DNA from: an uncultured Alphaproteobacteria bacterium
GTDB lineage: Bacteria; Pseudomonadota; Alphaproteobacteria; VGEJ01
Length of the DNA: 64,000 bases
Direction: 5' to 3'
NCBI GenBank assembly: GCA_913041535.1
Contig: CAJWJK010000001.1
Coordinates: forward strand, 62,001 to 126,000
Shown: positions 6,231 to 49,754 of the stretch, piece by piece
How positions within the stretch are numbered: position 1 is the stretch's first letter
How the letters are laid out: every line of letters begins with the position of its first letter
Notes under the pieces: generated by a model
What the model was told of the DNA's origin: nothing
Database searches by the model: none
What the model saw: only the letters and a program-made list of their open reading frames with translations
Position numbers and translations under genes: made by a program

Positions 6231-7532
6231 TCAGGGGGCAGCTGCACGCAATCGAATACGAATTGACTGAGCGTGCTCATCTAAACCTTCAGCCTCTGCG
6301 AGAGTGATGGCCGAAGGGCCGATATTCTCAAGGCTGGATGGGTTACACCGTACCACCGATATTCTCTTAAGGAACTCATAAACCGATAATCCAGAGGAAA
6401 ACTTGGCACTGCCTGAAGTAGGGAGGATATGGTTTGTTCCCGCGATATAGTCACCAATGGCTTCAGGAGTGATTCGACCAAGAAAGATTGTTCCCGCGTT
6501 TTGAATAAGTCCGACGATATCGTCTGGATTTTCAATCGCTAGTGCAACATGTTCGGGTGCAATCTGGTTAATAATTGAAGGAGCTCGGTTTATATTTTCC
6601 ACGATAATTATTGCGCCGTTATTTTCCCAACTGGTGGTCGCAATGGTATTGCGAGTCATTGCCGGTAGGCGCTGGGCAACTCCCATGGCTACTCTCTCGG
6701 CAAAGCCTTCATCATCGGTAATCAAGATCGCTTGGGCATTTGGGTCATGTTCTGCCTGTGATAGAAGGTCAGTGGCAACCCAGTTGGGATCGCTATGAAT
6801 ATCAGAGAGCACCACAATTTCTGATGGACCAGCCAAAACATCAATCCCAACATGTCCGAATACAAGGCGCTTTGCTGCAGAAACATATGCGTTTCCAGGG
6901 CCTATAATCTTGTCAACTGAGGCGATTGTGTTCGTACCGATAGCAAGAGCTGCAATGCCTTGGGCTCCCCCTATTCTATATATTTCAGTAATACCCGCCT
7001 TAGCGGCAGCTGCAAGCACAAGTGGGTGGGGGTCGCCTGCGCCACATGGTGTAACCATGGCAATTCGAGATACCCCAGCAACCAATGCAGGGATTGCCGC
7101 CATTAGGACTGTGCTAGGGTAGGCAGCCGAACCACCAGGAACATATAAACCTACTGAGCTGATGGGGGTCCATCGGTGTCCAAGCTCCATGCCAATGGAA
7201 TCAGTGTAGTGATCATCGTCTGGCATTTGGCGTTTATGGTGAGACTCGATTCTTTCAGCGGCAATATCGAGTGCCACGTGTTCGGCACTTGATATTTTCT
7301 CCGTTGCATTGGCGATGGTATTTTGATCAATTCTATATTGGCTCGGATCAAGGGAGACACCGTCGAATCGTTCAGTGTAAAGCTGAATAGCTTTGTCTCC
7401 TCGATTGCGTACATCCGACACAATCTCTCGGACAGAGTTATCCACTTTACTCAGGAGTCTGACTCTGGCCGTCAAATAGTCACGAAAACGATTCTCAAAT
7501 AAGGGGTCCTGCTCATTCAATCTAAGAACCAT
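6231..7532 (-). CDS. hisD: Histidinol dehydrogenase
   Basis: Zinc enzyme catalysing the last two oxidations of histidine synthesis, L-histidinol to L-histidine, with two NAD. Blocks seen: [34 protein letters not shown], the AGPSEIVV segment, QAEHDPNAQ and the catalytic APEHVAL. The frame is open to 7607, but the ATG at 7532 has GGGAGG six bases upstream and starts the family-typical MVLRLNEQD, giving 433 residues. The start lies inside the end of hisG (11-base overlap). Confidence 0.96.
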
Positions 7533-44691: not shown

Positions 44692-45918
44692 CTACCTTGG
44701 GGGATGACGGATTACGAGGACTGCATTTAATCCGCCGAATGCAAACGAATTAGTTAGAGCATATTCTATAGGCATAGTACGGGCCTTGTTTGGAACATAG
44801 TCCAGGTCACAGTCGGGGTCAGGCAATCTGTAGTTGATAGTAGGTGGGGACTGGCTGCATTTAATGGCAAGGATGGTAGCGGCTAGCTCGAGCGCGCCAC
44901 TGGCACCGAGCGCGTGGCCGTGCGCTCCCTTAGTTGACGAAACAGCAATTCTATCTGCACTTTTCTCAAATACTTGGCGAATAGCTTGGGTTTCCGACTT
45001 GTCGTTACTCACTGTGCCTGTGCCGTGGGCATTGATGTAATCGATCTGCTCCGATTCTAGGTGAGCGTCTTCTAGTGCCAATCTCATAGCTCGAGCAGCG
45101 CCAATTGCCGAGGGTTGGACAATGCCGCTAGCATCAGCGCTCATTCCAAACCCGGATATCTCAGCTAAGATGCATGCGTCTCGCTTTAGTGCAATGTCCA
45201 ATGCCTCAAGAACGAATATTGCCGCACCTTCACCGAGCACCATTCCGTCACGATCTGCACTAAACGGTCGACAGGAATCTGTGCTCATAACGCGCATAGC
45301 TTCCCAAGCTTTCATGCACCCGAAAGTGATACAGGCTTCGGCGCCCCCGGTAATGGCTATATCCGCTCGCCCTCGTCGTATCATCTCGAAGGATTCCCCT
45401 ATGGCATGTGTAGCCGATGCGCATGCGCTGGAGATCGTGAAAGTTGGCCCTTGTAGTCCAAGGTCAATACTAATGTTACTTGGTGCAGCGCTTCCCATTA
45501 CTCGGGGAATAACAAAAGGATGTAATCGCTTTGTTCCTTCAGCATAAAGTGCGCGAAAGGCATCATCTTGAGTTCCCAGACCTCCAATCCCTGTCCCAAT
45601 TATAGTGGCGGCGCGGGTTGCAATAGACTGATCAACTACCACCTGCGATTGATGTACCGCTTGACGAGAAGCAGCTAGAGCGAATTGCGAAAATCGGTCA
45701 AGAAGAGGGTTTCGTTCATTCGAAAAATGTTCTTCTGGTATAAAATCATTTACCTCGGCCGCAATTTTAATTTTTAGCTCGTCGGTTGGAATATTCTTAA
45801 TTCGTCTAATCCCGCATTCTCCATCGAAGAGAGATTTTTGGAACTGATCAGAACTATTTCCAATAGCTGAAATTACACCAAACCCGGTTATAACAACGCG
45901 GCGGAATTTTGACGTCAT
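44692..45918 (-). CDS. FabF-type beta-ketoacyl-ACP synthase
   Basis: 408-residue condensing enzyme of the KAS II group. The Cys-His-His triad is complete: Cys in SSACASATH, His in NAHGTGT and His in KGAHGHALGASG, so it should elongate rather than only decarboxylate. It is the last gene of the E1 alpha-E1 beta-AcoC-ACP-KS operon (32 bases after the ACP), not of a fabDGF cluster, which suggests a dedicated pathway. The ATG at 45918 is chosen; a TTG at 45945 is in frame. Confidence 0.92.
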   Translation of the reverse strand: MTSKFRRVVITGFGVISAIGNSSDQFQKSLFDGECGIRRIKNIPTDELKIKIAAEVNDFIPEEHFSNERNPLLDRFSQFALAASRQAVHQSQVVVDQSIATRAATIIGTGIGGLGTQDDAFRALYAEGTKRLHPFVIPRVMGSAAPSNISIDLGLQGPTFTISSACASATHAIGESFEMIRRGRADIAITGGAEACITFGCMKAWEAMRVMSTDSCRPFSADRDGMVLGEGAAIFVLEALDIALKRDACILAEISGFGMSADASGIVQPSAIGAARAMRLALEDAHLESEQIDYINAHGTGTVSNDKSETQAIRQVFEKSADRIAVSSTKGAHGHALGASGALELAATILAIKCSQSPPTINYRLPDPDCDLDYVPNKARTMPIEYALTNSFAFGGLNAVLVIRHPPR

Positions 45919-45950
45919 AACGTTAACTGAAAAGCATATAGCCAACTAAA

Positions 45951-46244
45951 TCAATTCATAGAAGGCTTATTTGCGAGCACCTTTGCAACTGCTTCCGCAA
46001 CTTCACCAACCGTTACAAATTCAGAGACTTCATTCTCACTAGGTCTGAATGGGATATCGATATCAAAATGCTGCTCTATAGAAAATATAAATTCTATAGT
46101 ATCAAATGAATCAAGGCCAAGATCTGTCAGCACAGTATTGGGCGAAATTGTGGTTACATCCAGTTCCTTACTTGCAGCAATTATTTCAATGATCTTTTCT
46201 GTAATTTCGTGGTTTGGTAAACGAGCTCTTTTATCAAGTGCCAC
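45951..46244 (-). CDS. Acyl carrier protein
   Basis: 97-residue acidic, helical carrier. The phosphopantetheine serine is in TDLGLDSFDTIEF (about residue 46). It is longer than primary-metabolism AcpP (about 78), with an extra N-terminal stretch of basic residues. The start is GTG at 46244, supported by GAGGAG 6-7 bases upstream, and overlaps the AcoC-like gene by 11 bases, implying coupled translation. It is encoded with a ketosynthase and a 2-oxoacid dehydrogenase, unusual for an ACP. Confidence 0.93.
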   Translation of the reverse strand: MALDKRARLPNHEITEKIIEIIAASKELDVTTISPNTVLTDLGLDSFDTIEFIFSIEQHFDIDIPFRPSENEVSEFVTVGEVAEAVAKVLANKPSMN

Positions 46245-47358
46245 GGATTAACTCCTCAATCAATCTATTGACCTCTCCGGATCTCTCCATATGCGCCATA
46301 TGTCCCGCGCCATCCACGTAGTGTGTGACTATGTTTGAAGGAAGATCATTAGTATGGGATATGGGAACGATTTGGTCTTCTGTGCCCCAAATGCATTGGG
46401 CTGGGATGCGCAGTTGAGATAGATGATCTTTCATTATCAGTGATTGATAACCATCGGGAAAAACATCAGCAGCAATTCTCCGTAATGCGTCCGTAGTCCC
46501 ATCCAGCCGCTTGTACTTTAAGATGTCGTTGATCATATCCCTGCTAACAAGTTTATTATTAGCGAATAACTCGGTTAGCACGCTTTTCATTTCTTTTGGT
46601 CGATTAGCACCGATAAAGTCCTCGATGTACTTCGAATTAATCTCGCGACCCAAACCTATCGACGAGATGATAGTGATCGATTTCGCAAGCTCAGGGTGGT
46701 CAAGAGAAAGCTTCAGTGCAATTCCGCCGCCCATCGAATGACCAACGATATGAACGCGAGGCACATTTAGGGAAGAAAGAAAAGATACAACAGATGTCAT
46801 CATAGCGCTGATGTCTCCTGCCTTTATTTCCTTATTGGACTCGCCGTGTCCGGGTAGGTCTAGAGAATAGGTGGTTATTGATTCAGAGAGAGGAGGTTGG
46901 TTAAACATCCAACTATTAATACCGCCCCCAAATCCATGTAAAAAAAGAAGGGGAATCTGTCCTGAATCACCTGCTCGTAAAAAACGCAGGCCTTGTCCAT
47001 CAATTTCAACCCGTTCATAGCTTGGGTCTAACTTATCCTGCACAGCTAATCTGTTCTCAAGTGAGGATTGGTACTGCTCAATGAAGTCATCAATGTCGGA
47101 TTCCAGAGTGTCGAGATTGGCAACAACCGCTAATAAGGCCTGTATCGGAACTGTCTCGCCTTCACAGACAACTTTTCGTCGCAGTACACCACTTACAGGG
47201 CTTTCGTACACATTTGTGATCTTCGTCGTTTCGATCTCGACAAGTTCATCACCTTTATGAATTGTTGAGCCCTCTTCAGCGTTCCACTTAGCTACCATGC
47301 CCTCAGTCATAGAAAGACCCCACTTAGGCATCGTTACAGCCTGTATTTGATCGCTCAT
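46234..47358 (-). CDS. AcoC-like lipoyl-alpha/beta hydrolase protein
   Basis: 374-residue protein with an N-terminal lipoyl domain (about residues 1-80; lipoyl Lys in EIETTKITN) joined by an acidic linker to an alpha/beta-hydrolase domain (about 115-374), the architecture of acetoin dehydrogenase E2 (AcoC). The hydrolase triad is complete: Ser in GHSMGGG, Asp in WGTEDQIVP and His in GAGHMAHME. The usual E2 peripheral-subunit-binding and HxxxDG catalytic domains are absent. Start overlaps the E1 beta stop (ATGA). It may hand an acyl group from lipoate to CoA or, given the neighbours, to the ACP. Confidence 0.9.
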   Translation of the reverse strand: MSDQIQAVTMPKWGLSMTEGMVAKWNAEEGSTIHKGDELVEIETTKITNVYESPVSGVLRRKVVCEGETVPIQALLAVVANLDTLESDIDDFIEQYQSSLENRLAVQDKLDPSYERVEIDGQGLRFLRAGDSGQIPLLFLHGFGGGINSWMFNQPPLSESITTYSLDLPGHGESNKEIKAGDISAMMTSVVSFLSSLNVPRVHIVGHSMGGGIALKLSLDHPELAKSITIISSIGLGREINSKYIEDFIGANRPKEMKSVLTELFANNKLVSRDMINDILKYKRLDGTTDALRRIAADVFPDGYQSLIMKDHLSQLRIPAQCIWGTEDQIVPISHTNDLPSNIVTHYVDGAGHMAHMERSGEVNRLIEELIRGT

Positions 47359-48368
47359 TGAGATTTTCCCACTAAACTTCGAACCGCTTCACAAATATCA
47401 TGTACGTTTGGAATATAGGCATCCTCTAGCTCTGGTGCGAAGGGTACGGGGGTGTGTGGGGGACGTACCATCCGTATGGGGCCCTTAAGCGCTGTAAACG
47501 CGCGTTCCGCGACCAAAGCTGAAATGTCAGTTGCTATACTGCAACGAGGGCTTGCCTCGTCAACCACGACCAAGCGGCCCGTGTCTTCTACTGTTTCAAT
47601 GATGGTGTCTTCATCCATAGGAGAGGTGGTTCTCGGATCAACCACTGTGCACTGAATATTATCTCGTTGTAAGTTGTCCGCTGCTTCGTTGGCTAGGTTT
47701 ACCATGCGTCCAATGGCTACAATACTGACATCATCGCCTTCCCGCGTAAGATTTGCCTCTCCAAACGGTATTGTGTATGCCTCGTCCGGCACGTCCTCTT
47801 CCACGTCGTAGAGAGTTTTATGTTCAAAAAATACAACTGGATCATCATCACGAATCGCCTCGGTAAGAAGCCCCTTAGCTTCGTAAGGAGAGGATGGGAT
47901 GACGACCTTTAGTCCAGGAATATGAGTGAAAACAGGATATAAACTCTGGCTGTGTTGACTTGCCGCTCTTAGGCCCGCGCCATACATGGTTCGAATGACT
48001 AGAGGTGTAACAGCCCTTCCACCAAACATATAACGAAATTTCGCTGCTTGATTGAAAATCTGGTCGAAACAAACGCCCATAAAATCAACAAACATTAGAT
48101 CAGCAACGGGTCGCAAACCTGTTGCTGCTGCCCCAACAGCAGCTCCAATAAATGCGCTCTCTGATATCGGTGTATCTAGAACTCTAGAACGACCAAATTC
48201 TGGCATTAACCCTTTTGTAACTCCCTGAGGTCCTCCCCACGCGTCCTGTTCACCCGGAGAGCCTAACCCTCCCGAAATGTCCTCACCCACTATTACAACG
48301 GTTGGATCTCTCCTCATTTCTTGGGCTAGGGCTTCATGTACCGCCTGACGGAATGTTTTCTTTGGCAT
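47355..48368 (-). CDS. 2-Oxoacid/acetoin dehydrogenase E1 beta
   Basis: 337-residue E1 beta subunit, pairing with the alpha subunit encoded immediately upstream (11-base gap) to form the TPP site. Blocks: VIVGEDISGGLGSPGEQDAWGG, DTPISESAFIGAAVGAAA, LMFVDFMGVCFDQIFNQAAK and the C-terminal VRPPHTPVPFAPELE. The E1 alpha-beta pair is closest in pattern to acetoin or branched-chain dehydrogenases. No E3 (lipoamide dehydrogenase) gene is in the operon, so a shared one is needed. Confidence 0.93.
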   Translation of the reverse strand: MPKKTFRQAVHEALAQEMRRDPTVVIVGEDISGGLGSPGEQDAWGGPQGVTKGLMPEFGRSRVLDTPISESAFIGAAVGAAATGLRPVADLMFVDFMGVCFDQIFNQAAKFRYMFGGRAVTPLVIRTMYGAGLRAASQHSQSLYPVFTHIPGLKVVIPSSPYEAKGLLTEAIRDDDPVVFFEHKTLYDVEEDVPDEAYTIPFGEANLTREGDDVSIVAIGRMVNLANEAADNLQRDNIQCTVVDPRTTSPMDEDTIIETVEDTGRLVVVDEASPRCSIATDISALVAERAFTALKGPIRMVRPPHTPVPFAPELEDAYIPNVHDICEAVRSLVGKSQ

Positions 48369-48379
48369 AGCAATGATTC

Positions 48380-49348
48380 CTAGTAGTTGACGTATACATC
48401 AGTAAGGACCTGATCAACTGTAGGGCGAGGAGCAGACCTTGCGTTCATCACGGCATCATCAATGAGAGCAACAACTTCCATGTCGATATCATCAAGTTGA
48501 CTGGTGTCAATAAGTGCAGATTCCGTAACGCGTTTACGAAAATTCAAAAGACAATCATTATTCTCACGAGCATCTGCCACTTCGGTCTCTCCACGATATG
48601 TACCAGCATCTCCTTCAAAGTGATTGTAATAGCGGTCCAGCATCACGTGAATAAGACTTGGGCCCCGACCGGATCGTGCATGTGATACTGCCTCGGAAGC
48701 TGCCTCGTTAACGGCAAAAAAATCTCGCCCATCAACCTTATAACCTGGCATATCAAATGCTTCTGCCCTCTTTATCTGGCTACCTGCAACTGACCAACTG
48801 CTTCCTGTAGATTCAGCGTAACCGTTATCTTCCACTACAAAAATCGCTGGTAGATTCCAAACTCGCGCAAGGTTGTATGCCTCTAAAGTGGTTCCTTGGT
48901 TTGAACCGCCGTCGCCTACAAATGCGACGGCGACACCTCCAGTATTAAGTGTTTTTGCAGTTAGTGCCGCTCCGCAGATTAAGGGAGGGCCACCACCAAC
49001 TATGCCGTTTGCACCAAGCATGCCCTGCGTAAGATCCGCAATATGCATCGAGCCGCCCTTGCCATGGCAGGTCCCACTTGCACGGCCGAACAACTCCGCC
49101 ATCATAGCCTTAACGTCACATCCTTTGGCAATACAGTGCCCGTGACCACGGTGTGTACTGGCAATTGTGTCGGTAGTATTTAGATTCATACAGACGCCAA
49201 TTGCCGACGCTTCTTCACCAGCATATAGGTGCACGAATCCGGGCATGTCCCCCGAAGCAAATTCAACGTGTACCCTTTCCTCAAACTCTCTGATGGTTCG
49301 CATACCACGGTATGCTGAAAGAAGTTCATCGCGGGTCAGTTGTTGCAC
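48380..49348 (-). CDS. 2-Oxoacid/acetoin dehydrogenase E1 alpha
   Basis: 322-residue E1 alpha subunit. The TPP motif is GDGGSNQGTTLE to VVEDN near residues 145-180; HRGHGHCIAKG near 66 and the GKGGSMHIAD block (about 97) are typical of the acetoin/pyruvate group. The start is GTG with GAGGG four bases upstream. First gene of the five-gene operon; its promoter should lie in 49349-49697. Confidence 0.93.
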   Translation of the reverse strand: MQQLTRDELLSAYRGMRTIREFEERVHVEFASGDMPGFVHLYAGEEASAIGVCMNLNTTDTIASTHRGHGHCIAKGCDVKAMMAELFGRASGTCHGKGGSMHIADLTQGMLGANGIVGGGPPLICGAALTAKTLNTGGVAVAFVGDGGSNQGTTLEAYNLARVWNLPAIFVVEDNGYAESTGSSWSVAGSQIKRAEAFDMPGYKVDGRDFFAVNEAASEAVSHARSGRGPSLIHVMLDRYYNHFEGDAGTYRGETEVADARENNDCLLNFRKRVTESALIDTSQLDDIDMEVVALIDDAVMNARSAPRPTVDQVLTDVYVNY

Positions 49349-49697: not shown

Positions 49698-49737
49698 GGA
49701 AAAAATGAGTGGGGCACAGAAACTATCTGTGCCCCAC
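49698..49737 (-). terminator. Intrinsic terminator of the substrate-binding-protein gene
   Basis: Perfect 11-base-pair stem (GTGGGGCACAG/CTGTGCCCCAC, 49709-49719 and 49727-49737) with a 7-base loop, followed on the minus strand by TCATTTTTT. It is 18 bases after the stop of the gene at 49755. Confidence 0.88.
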
Positions 49738-49754
49738 CAAAAAACTACACCAAA

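Follow-up and report, generated by a model that had tools for sequence, protein, structure and literature searches.

The window analysed here, 64 kb at positions 62001-126000 of contig C1 of the genome G000 (2.09 Mb, 39 contigs), carries an operon of five minus-strand genes in which the two E1 subunits and the E2 of an acetoin-dehydrogenase-type complex are followed by an acyl carrier protein (ACP) and a FabF-like ketosynthase (KS) (Table 1). The genes stand in the order E1alpha-E1beta-E2-ACP-KS with a spacing of 11, -4 (an ATGA overlap), -11 and 32 bases. This arrangement had been described in an initial annotation of the sequence, and every open reading frame (ORF) was found at its place. 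The ORF list starts the KS at a TTG at 45945, but homologues start at the ATG at 45918, which yields the 32-base gap between ACP and KS. No terminator-like site was found within the operon, and a strong one lies upstream of E1alpha. The SBP, cupin, RraA and GloB genes were ruled out as members of the unit, since they are missing from the corresponding locus of a second genome (G001, see below) and a terminator precedes E1alpha.

As the initial annotation also stated, none of the five genes encodes an E3, an acyltransferase, a ketoreductase or a phosphopantetheinyl transferase. AcoX, AcoR and AcoL/E3 are absent from the operon as well; their genes are optional in the acetoin family, many relatives being without them too. 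Elsewhere in G000, a pyruvate dehydrogenase (PDH) operon holds the PDH E2, an E3 that passes TIGR01350 and, by inspection, a LipA-like ORF, and in the primary fab cluster FabD-like and FabG-like ORFs, likewise recognised by inspection, precede AcpP and FabF. FabH is present in the genome, and the operon as a FabH replacement was therefore rejected.

Table 1. Features of the operon in the window and loci of the related cassette in other genomes (window positions unless a locus is named).
Feature	Position	Strand	Description
E1alpha	48380..49348	-	322 aa; thiamine diphosphate (ThDP)-dependent, acetoin-dehydrogenase type; E1_dh domain match
E1beta	47355..48368	-	337 aa; transketolase pyrimidine and C-terminal domains
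E2, AcoC type	46234..47358	-	374 aa; Biotin_lipoyl and Abhydrolase_1
ACP	45951..46244	-	97 aa; PP-binding domain; DSF phosphopantetheine site
KS, FabF-like	44692..45918	-	408 aa from ATG; ketoacyl-synt N and C domains
Terminator-like hairpin	49708..49738	-	13 bp stem, T tail; between operon and upstream SBP gene
LpxD-type acyltransferase-ACP-KS cassette	L003:6568-9230		
LpxD-type acyltransferase-ACP-KS cassette	L115:6591-9204		
LpxD-type acyltransferase-ACP-KS cassette	L117:6861-9571		
LpxD-type acyltransferase-ACP-KS cassette	L118:6375-9025		
LpxD-type acyltransferase-ACP-KS cassette	L120:6539-9178		
Further LpxD-ACP-KS cassettes	L221-L224, L252, L254, L255, L261-L263, L265		

Conservation of the five-gene array

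G001, the only other sampled genome of the same family and a member of a different genus, has counterparts of all five genes in this order, spaced by 9, -4, 14 and 33 bases. Protein identity between the two loci is 72% for E1alpha, 80% for E1beta, 52% for E2, 39% for ACP and 54% for KS, at a GC content of 69% in the 14-kb G001 locus and 46% in the window. When this locus was compared with the whole window, the operon genes were the sole matches; a conserved sixth gene, which the initial annotation had suggested looking for, was not found. Conservation thus ends exactly at the operon borders. Since the flanks are unshared and the array is nevertheless kept in a second genus, the linkage is conserved beyond chance, and the adjacency of ACP and KS to the E1/E2 genes is not favoured as accidental. 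The five genes are one conserved unit and may function as one. Separate joining events in the two genera are not supported, as monophyly of the two KS genes is not rejected (p-AU 0.31).

The E1/E2 genes and the acetoin dehydrogenases

The E2 scores 444.4 bits against the AcoC model PRK14875 (cut-off 307), in agreement with the AcoC-like assignment made initially. Alignment shows lipoyl Lys46 intact and hydrolase residues Ser208, Asp328 and His353 invariant; together with the DSF site of the ACP and the KS residues treated below, this bears out the earlier description of intact catalytic residues. A confident AlphaFold2 model of the E2 (pLDDT 91.6) was compared by Foldseek, and the nearest structures to its hydrolase domain were the HsaD/CumD C-C hydrolases and lipases. 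The model would fit a Ser acyl-enzyme and does not identify the acyl acceptor.

E2 relatives (E <= 1e-60) occur in 31 of the 385 sampled genomes of the class and in 9 of 399 of the phylum. Among 30 E1/E2 loci seen with several kb of flanking sequence, contig ends permitting, ACP and KS were found in G001 alone, and in none of 8 further loci with flanks of about 1.5 kb, so that about 38 other acetoin-type loci lack the pair. In a concatenated E1/E2 tree the window and G001 are sisters (SH-aLRT 99) within the group of acetoin-type operons, several of which adjoin sigma-54 activators like AcoR and an NAD-kinase-like gene like AcoX, both names being our own reading of these neighbours. The catalytic residues are preserved in all of these operons. 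The initial annotation had left the choice between a 2-oxoacid and an acetoin-type complex; that assignment stands and is narrowed by this nesting to the acetoin side. In a plasmid collection 48 AcoC-like records were found and, among the matches listed, the annotated ones are acetoin dehydrogenase E2 proteins.

E1alpha and E1beta have the ThDP fold and the active-site His loop, but the residue before the His is altered. At E1alpha position 242, in this loop (RYY(G/N)HFEGD), all 27 of 27 AcoA-like relatives carry Gly, whereas Asn is found in the window and Ser in G001. The next residue, His, matches in the alignment a His of the phosphorylation loop in human PDH E1alpha. Because Gly242 is replaced beside the active-site loop His, it is possible, judging from the sequence, that the E1 substrate has shifted from that of the relatives. 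A third E1alpha/E1beta pair was also seen in G000, followed by an 86-aa lipoyl-domain frame (G000:C1:252516-252734; L242, about 6517-6735) with no E2 catalytic domain seen alongside.

The ACP-KS pair and its other settings

The KS has an intact Cys-His-His triad and Lys by alignment and passes the broad PRK07314 model, but at 470.5 it fails the fabF equivalog TIGR03150 (cut-off 493.75), as does the G001 KS at 440.4. Phylogenetic trees place it among ACP-paired KSs, in a clade supported by SH-aLRT 99 (100/97 in the more careful tree) and apart from its own genome's FabF, which lies on contig C6; a grouping with the FabF proteins encoded beside fabG/acpP was not seen. The operon KS is thus a member of a separate ACP-paired subfamily and not the primary FabF. 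Compared with FabF, the subfamily has both gating loops consistently changed. It has deletions near FabF positions 213-216 and 276-277, has lost the loop His three residues past Asp265, carries W in place of F at FabF 202/203, and shows the substitution G399A in gating loop 1. The operon KS itself carries an SFAFGGLN motif and a shortened gating loop. A study of KS gating reports G399A to be tolerated and to be natural in the polyene KSs Iga11 and ApeO (PMC7138838).

The operon ACP scores above the cut-off for no specific ACP family and is distinct from the genome's primary AcpP. Against PRK06508, which we take to be the AcpXL model, it reaches 38.3 (cut-off 83), a score that rules out the AcpXL system for very-long-chain fatty acids of lipid A. 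Besides the operon genes, G000 has a single KS and a single ACP of these families. The operon KS was accordingly rejected as the sole elongating KS and, with no more than two such genes of each kind in the genome, the operon pair represents a dedicated second set, as had been proposed. KS matches (E <= 1e-95) occur in 26 of the 385 genomes of the class, and a scan of viral contigs gave no relatives. Two further condensing-enzyme-like genes were noted in these genomes: a type III polyketide synthase-like gene in G000 (L244:6526-8096; 137 bits against the DpgA model, below its cut-off) beside an isoprenylcysteine-methyltransferase-like ORF, and a similar KAS III-like gene in G001 (L245:1441-2520) whose neighbours are partly common with the G000 locus.

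In 18 of the 26 loci of the class the ACP-KS pair adjoins an LpxD-type acyltransferase; an AcoC-type E2 takes that place in 2 of 26, namely the window and G001. No name was found for the LpxD-ACP-KS cassette. In one genome (G023) the sole PF04613 match sits in such a cassette, and most cassette KSs have Ala, Val or Gly at the position of FabF I108. A cassette-type LpxD paralogue was found neither beside the operon nor elsewhere in G000 and G001, which have the canonical LpxD only. Amide-linked 3-oxo-14:0 is known from the lipid A of Spiribacter and Ectothiorhodospira, and 3-oxo acids from that of Rhodobacter (PMC5923411). The cassette KS and its private ACP may make 3-oxoacyl-ACP that is taken by LpxD ahead of reduction by FabG, and the cassette could in this way explain the 3-oxo acyl chains of some lipid A. 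In groups from another class of the same phylum the neighbour of the pair can be a class-III aminotransferase, a HAD phosphatase or both. With LpxD-type or aminotransferase/HAD neighbours in these other settings, the ACP-KS pair behaves like a module that various acyl-handling enzymes have recruited.

An apparently uncharacterised cluster was met at L249, L253 and L264, loci from that other class, where a subfamily ACP-KS lies beside a class-III aminotransferase, in the latter two together with a HAD phosphatase. On contig C61 of another alphaproteobacterium (G672), an AcoC-type E2 (100408) lies about 25 kb from a subfamily KS (126793), probably by coincidence.

Proposed acyl transfer, its alternatives and known systems

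The joining of E1/E2 to a private ACP and a specialised KS suggests that a two-carbon unit is used for building and not merely burned. The acetoin-type E1 would cleave acetoin, a related hydroxyketone or a 2-oxoacid on thiamine diphosphate and pass the acyl group, probably acetyl, to the lipoyl arm of the E2. From there the hydrolase-fold domain, via its active-site Ser, might move the acyl group to the phosphopantetheine of the operon ACP, instead of or besides CoA, and the KS could condense it with malonyl-ACP of the primary pathway to 3-oxoacyl-ACP, while E3, FabD and any reductase would be supplied by other loci of G000. In this scheme we infer the substrate, the move from the lipoyl arm to the ACP, the extension step and the product. 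Direct hand-over from E2 to ACP and KS within one conserved functional unit appears to be the likeliest single mechanism, and we hold it tentatively, at somewhat less than an even chance; that the hydrolase-fold E2 delivers the lipoyl-bound acyl group straight to the dedicated ACP, priming the KS without CoA or FabH, is a more specific proposal and a doubtful one.

Several observations weigh against such a hand-over. The unit is present in two genomes only, and the KS genes of the window and G001 are not sisters in the tree, although their common origin is not rejected. The E2 is ordinary for an AcoC in its catalytic residues and overall sequence, and the operon encodes no reductase, thioesterase or tailoring enzyme from which a product could be read. 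The transfer from E2 to ACP is a step that we infer: movement of an acyl group from lipoate to ACP followed by extension on the KS, as put forward in the initial annotation, gained support from no result of the analysis.

As the main rival, the two halves of the operon might instead be co-expressed under a common growth condition, with a shared acetyl-CoA pool, and be chemically separate. The E1/E2 would produce acetyl-CoA and NADH, whereas the ACP-KS would draw on the ordinary fatty-acid pool to build a special (3-oxo)acyl chain for a lipid needed under that condition. The E1/E2 residues agree almost throughout with those of AcoABC operons that have no ACP-KS, the subfamily elsewhere adjoins an LpxD-type lipid acyltransferase, and G000 has a normal FabF/AcpP, FabH and a PDH with E3. 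However, neither family member has the lipid acyltransferase partner and E1alpha is altered in both at the otherwise invariant Gly242, two findings that support the direct hand-over, and the overlapping E1beta/E2 and near-contiguous E2/ACP genes across genera better fit a physical or stoichiometric partnership; we consider separate chemistry rather unlikely. Mere hitch-hiking would mean that the family ancestor acquired an ACP-KS cassette downstream of its acetoin operon and that the cassette was retained without a functional link. In its favour, each part is found on its own in many genomes, at 7-8% of those sampled from the class. Yet the five genes have remained together, with 39-80% protein identity and intact active sites, although no flanking synteny survives, which leaves hitch-hiking a slim chance.

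Lipoylation takes its octanoyl group from acyl-ACP, as is established biochemically, certain acetoin operons include a lipoate-synthase-like gene, and the lipoyl domain of the operon E2 has its Lys intact. A dedicated ACP and KS might hence help to make octanoyl-ACP for LipB/LipA to lipoylate the E2, like mitochondrial type II fatty-acid synthesis (FAS) for PDH. This seems improbable, as the roughly 38 related acetoin operons do without the pair, a LipA-like ORF lies beside the PDH genes of G000, primary FAS already yields octanoyl-ACP and the subfamily is usually distant from lipoyl enzymes. The flow could also run in reverse, from ACP to E2, so that the hydrolase domain would take over the acyl group of the KS product or cleave its thioester, for instance to free a 3-oxoacid, which would lose CO2 and become a methyl ketone. 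The resemblance of its Ser-Asp-His fold to C-C hydrolases and lipases would allow this, and the KS subfamily in its LpxD setting would be expected to yield unreduced 3-oxoacyl-ACP, but AcoC proteins that have no ACP-KS pair to work with contain the same domain and no other gene points to such a product; we regard reverse flow as very improbable.

If direct hand-over is true, it would link oxidative decarboxylation or acyloin cleavage directly with type II chain building and open a CoA-free entry into fatty-acid/polyketide building, in which the hydrolase-type E2, itself little understood, would serve as acyl-ACP synthase. Otherwise the analysis still sets apart a KS/ACP subfamily that annotation pipelines call FabF and ACP and that is seen in several pathways.

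No report of an acetoin dehydrogenase together with an ACP and a ketosynthase was found in the literature searched, and the search for literature on ACP loading by an E2, or on naphthyridinomycin, gave nothing usable. The parts of the operon are known; their five-gene combination is conserved in one family and did not turn up among the other genomes sampled from the phylum. With the acetoin dehydrogenases of the Cupriavidus/Pelobacter type (AcoA/AcoB/AcoC) the operon has in common the E1alpha-E1beta-E2 order and architecture, but it is without AcoX, AcoR and E3, continues after E2 with ACP and KS, and has Gly242 changed to Asn (Ser in G001). The primary FabF (KAS II) shares fold, Cys-His-His and Lys with the operon KS, which differs by its separate clade, its score below the fabF equivalog cut-off, the loop deletions and G399A. 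The LpxD-ACP-KS cassette of Alphaproteobacteria has the same ACP and KS subfamily in the same order, the acyltransferase being replaced by E1/E2 in the window. In naphthyridinomycin/quinocarcin/saframycin biosynthesis, PDH/transketolase-like E1-E2 proteins of the NapB/NapD type reportedly load a two-carbon unit onto an ACP. That system is said to use other E1/E2 proteins, a ketose-phosphate donor and a non-ribosomal peptide synthetase (NRPS) context, and to have no FabF-like KS, but its ThDP E1, lipoyl-type E2 and ACP acceptor follow the logic proposed here.

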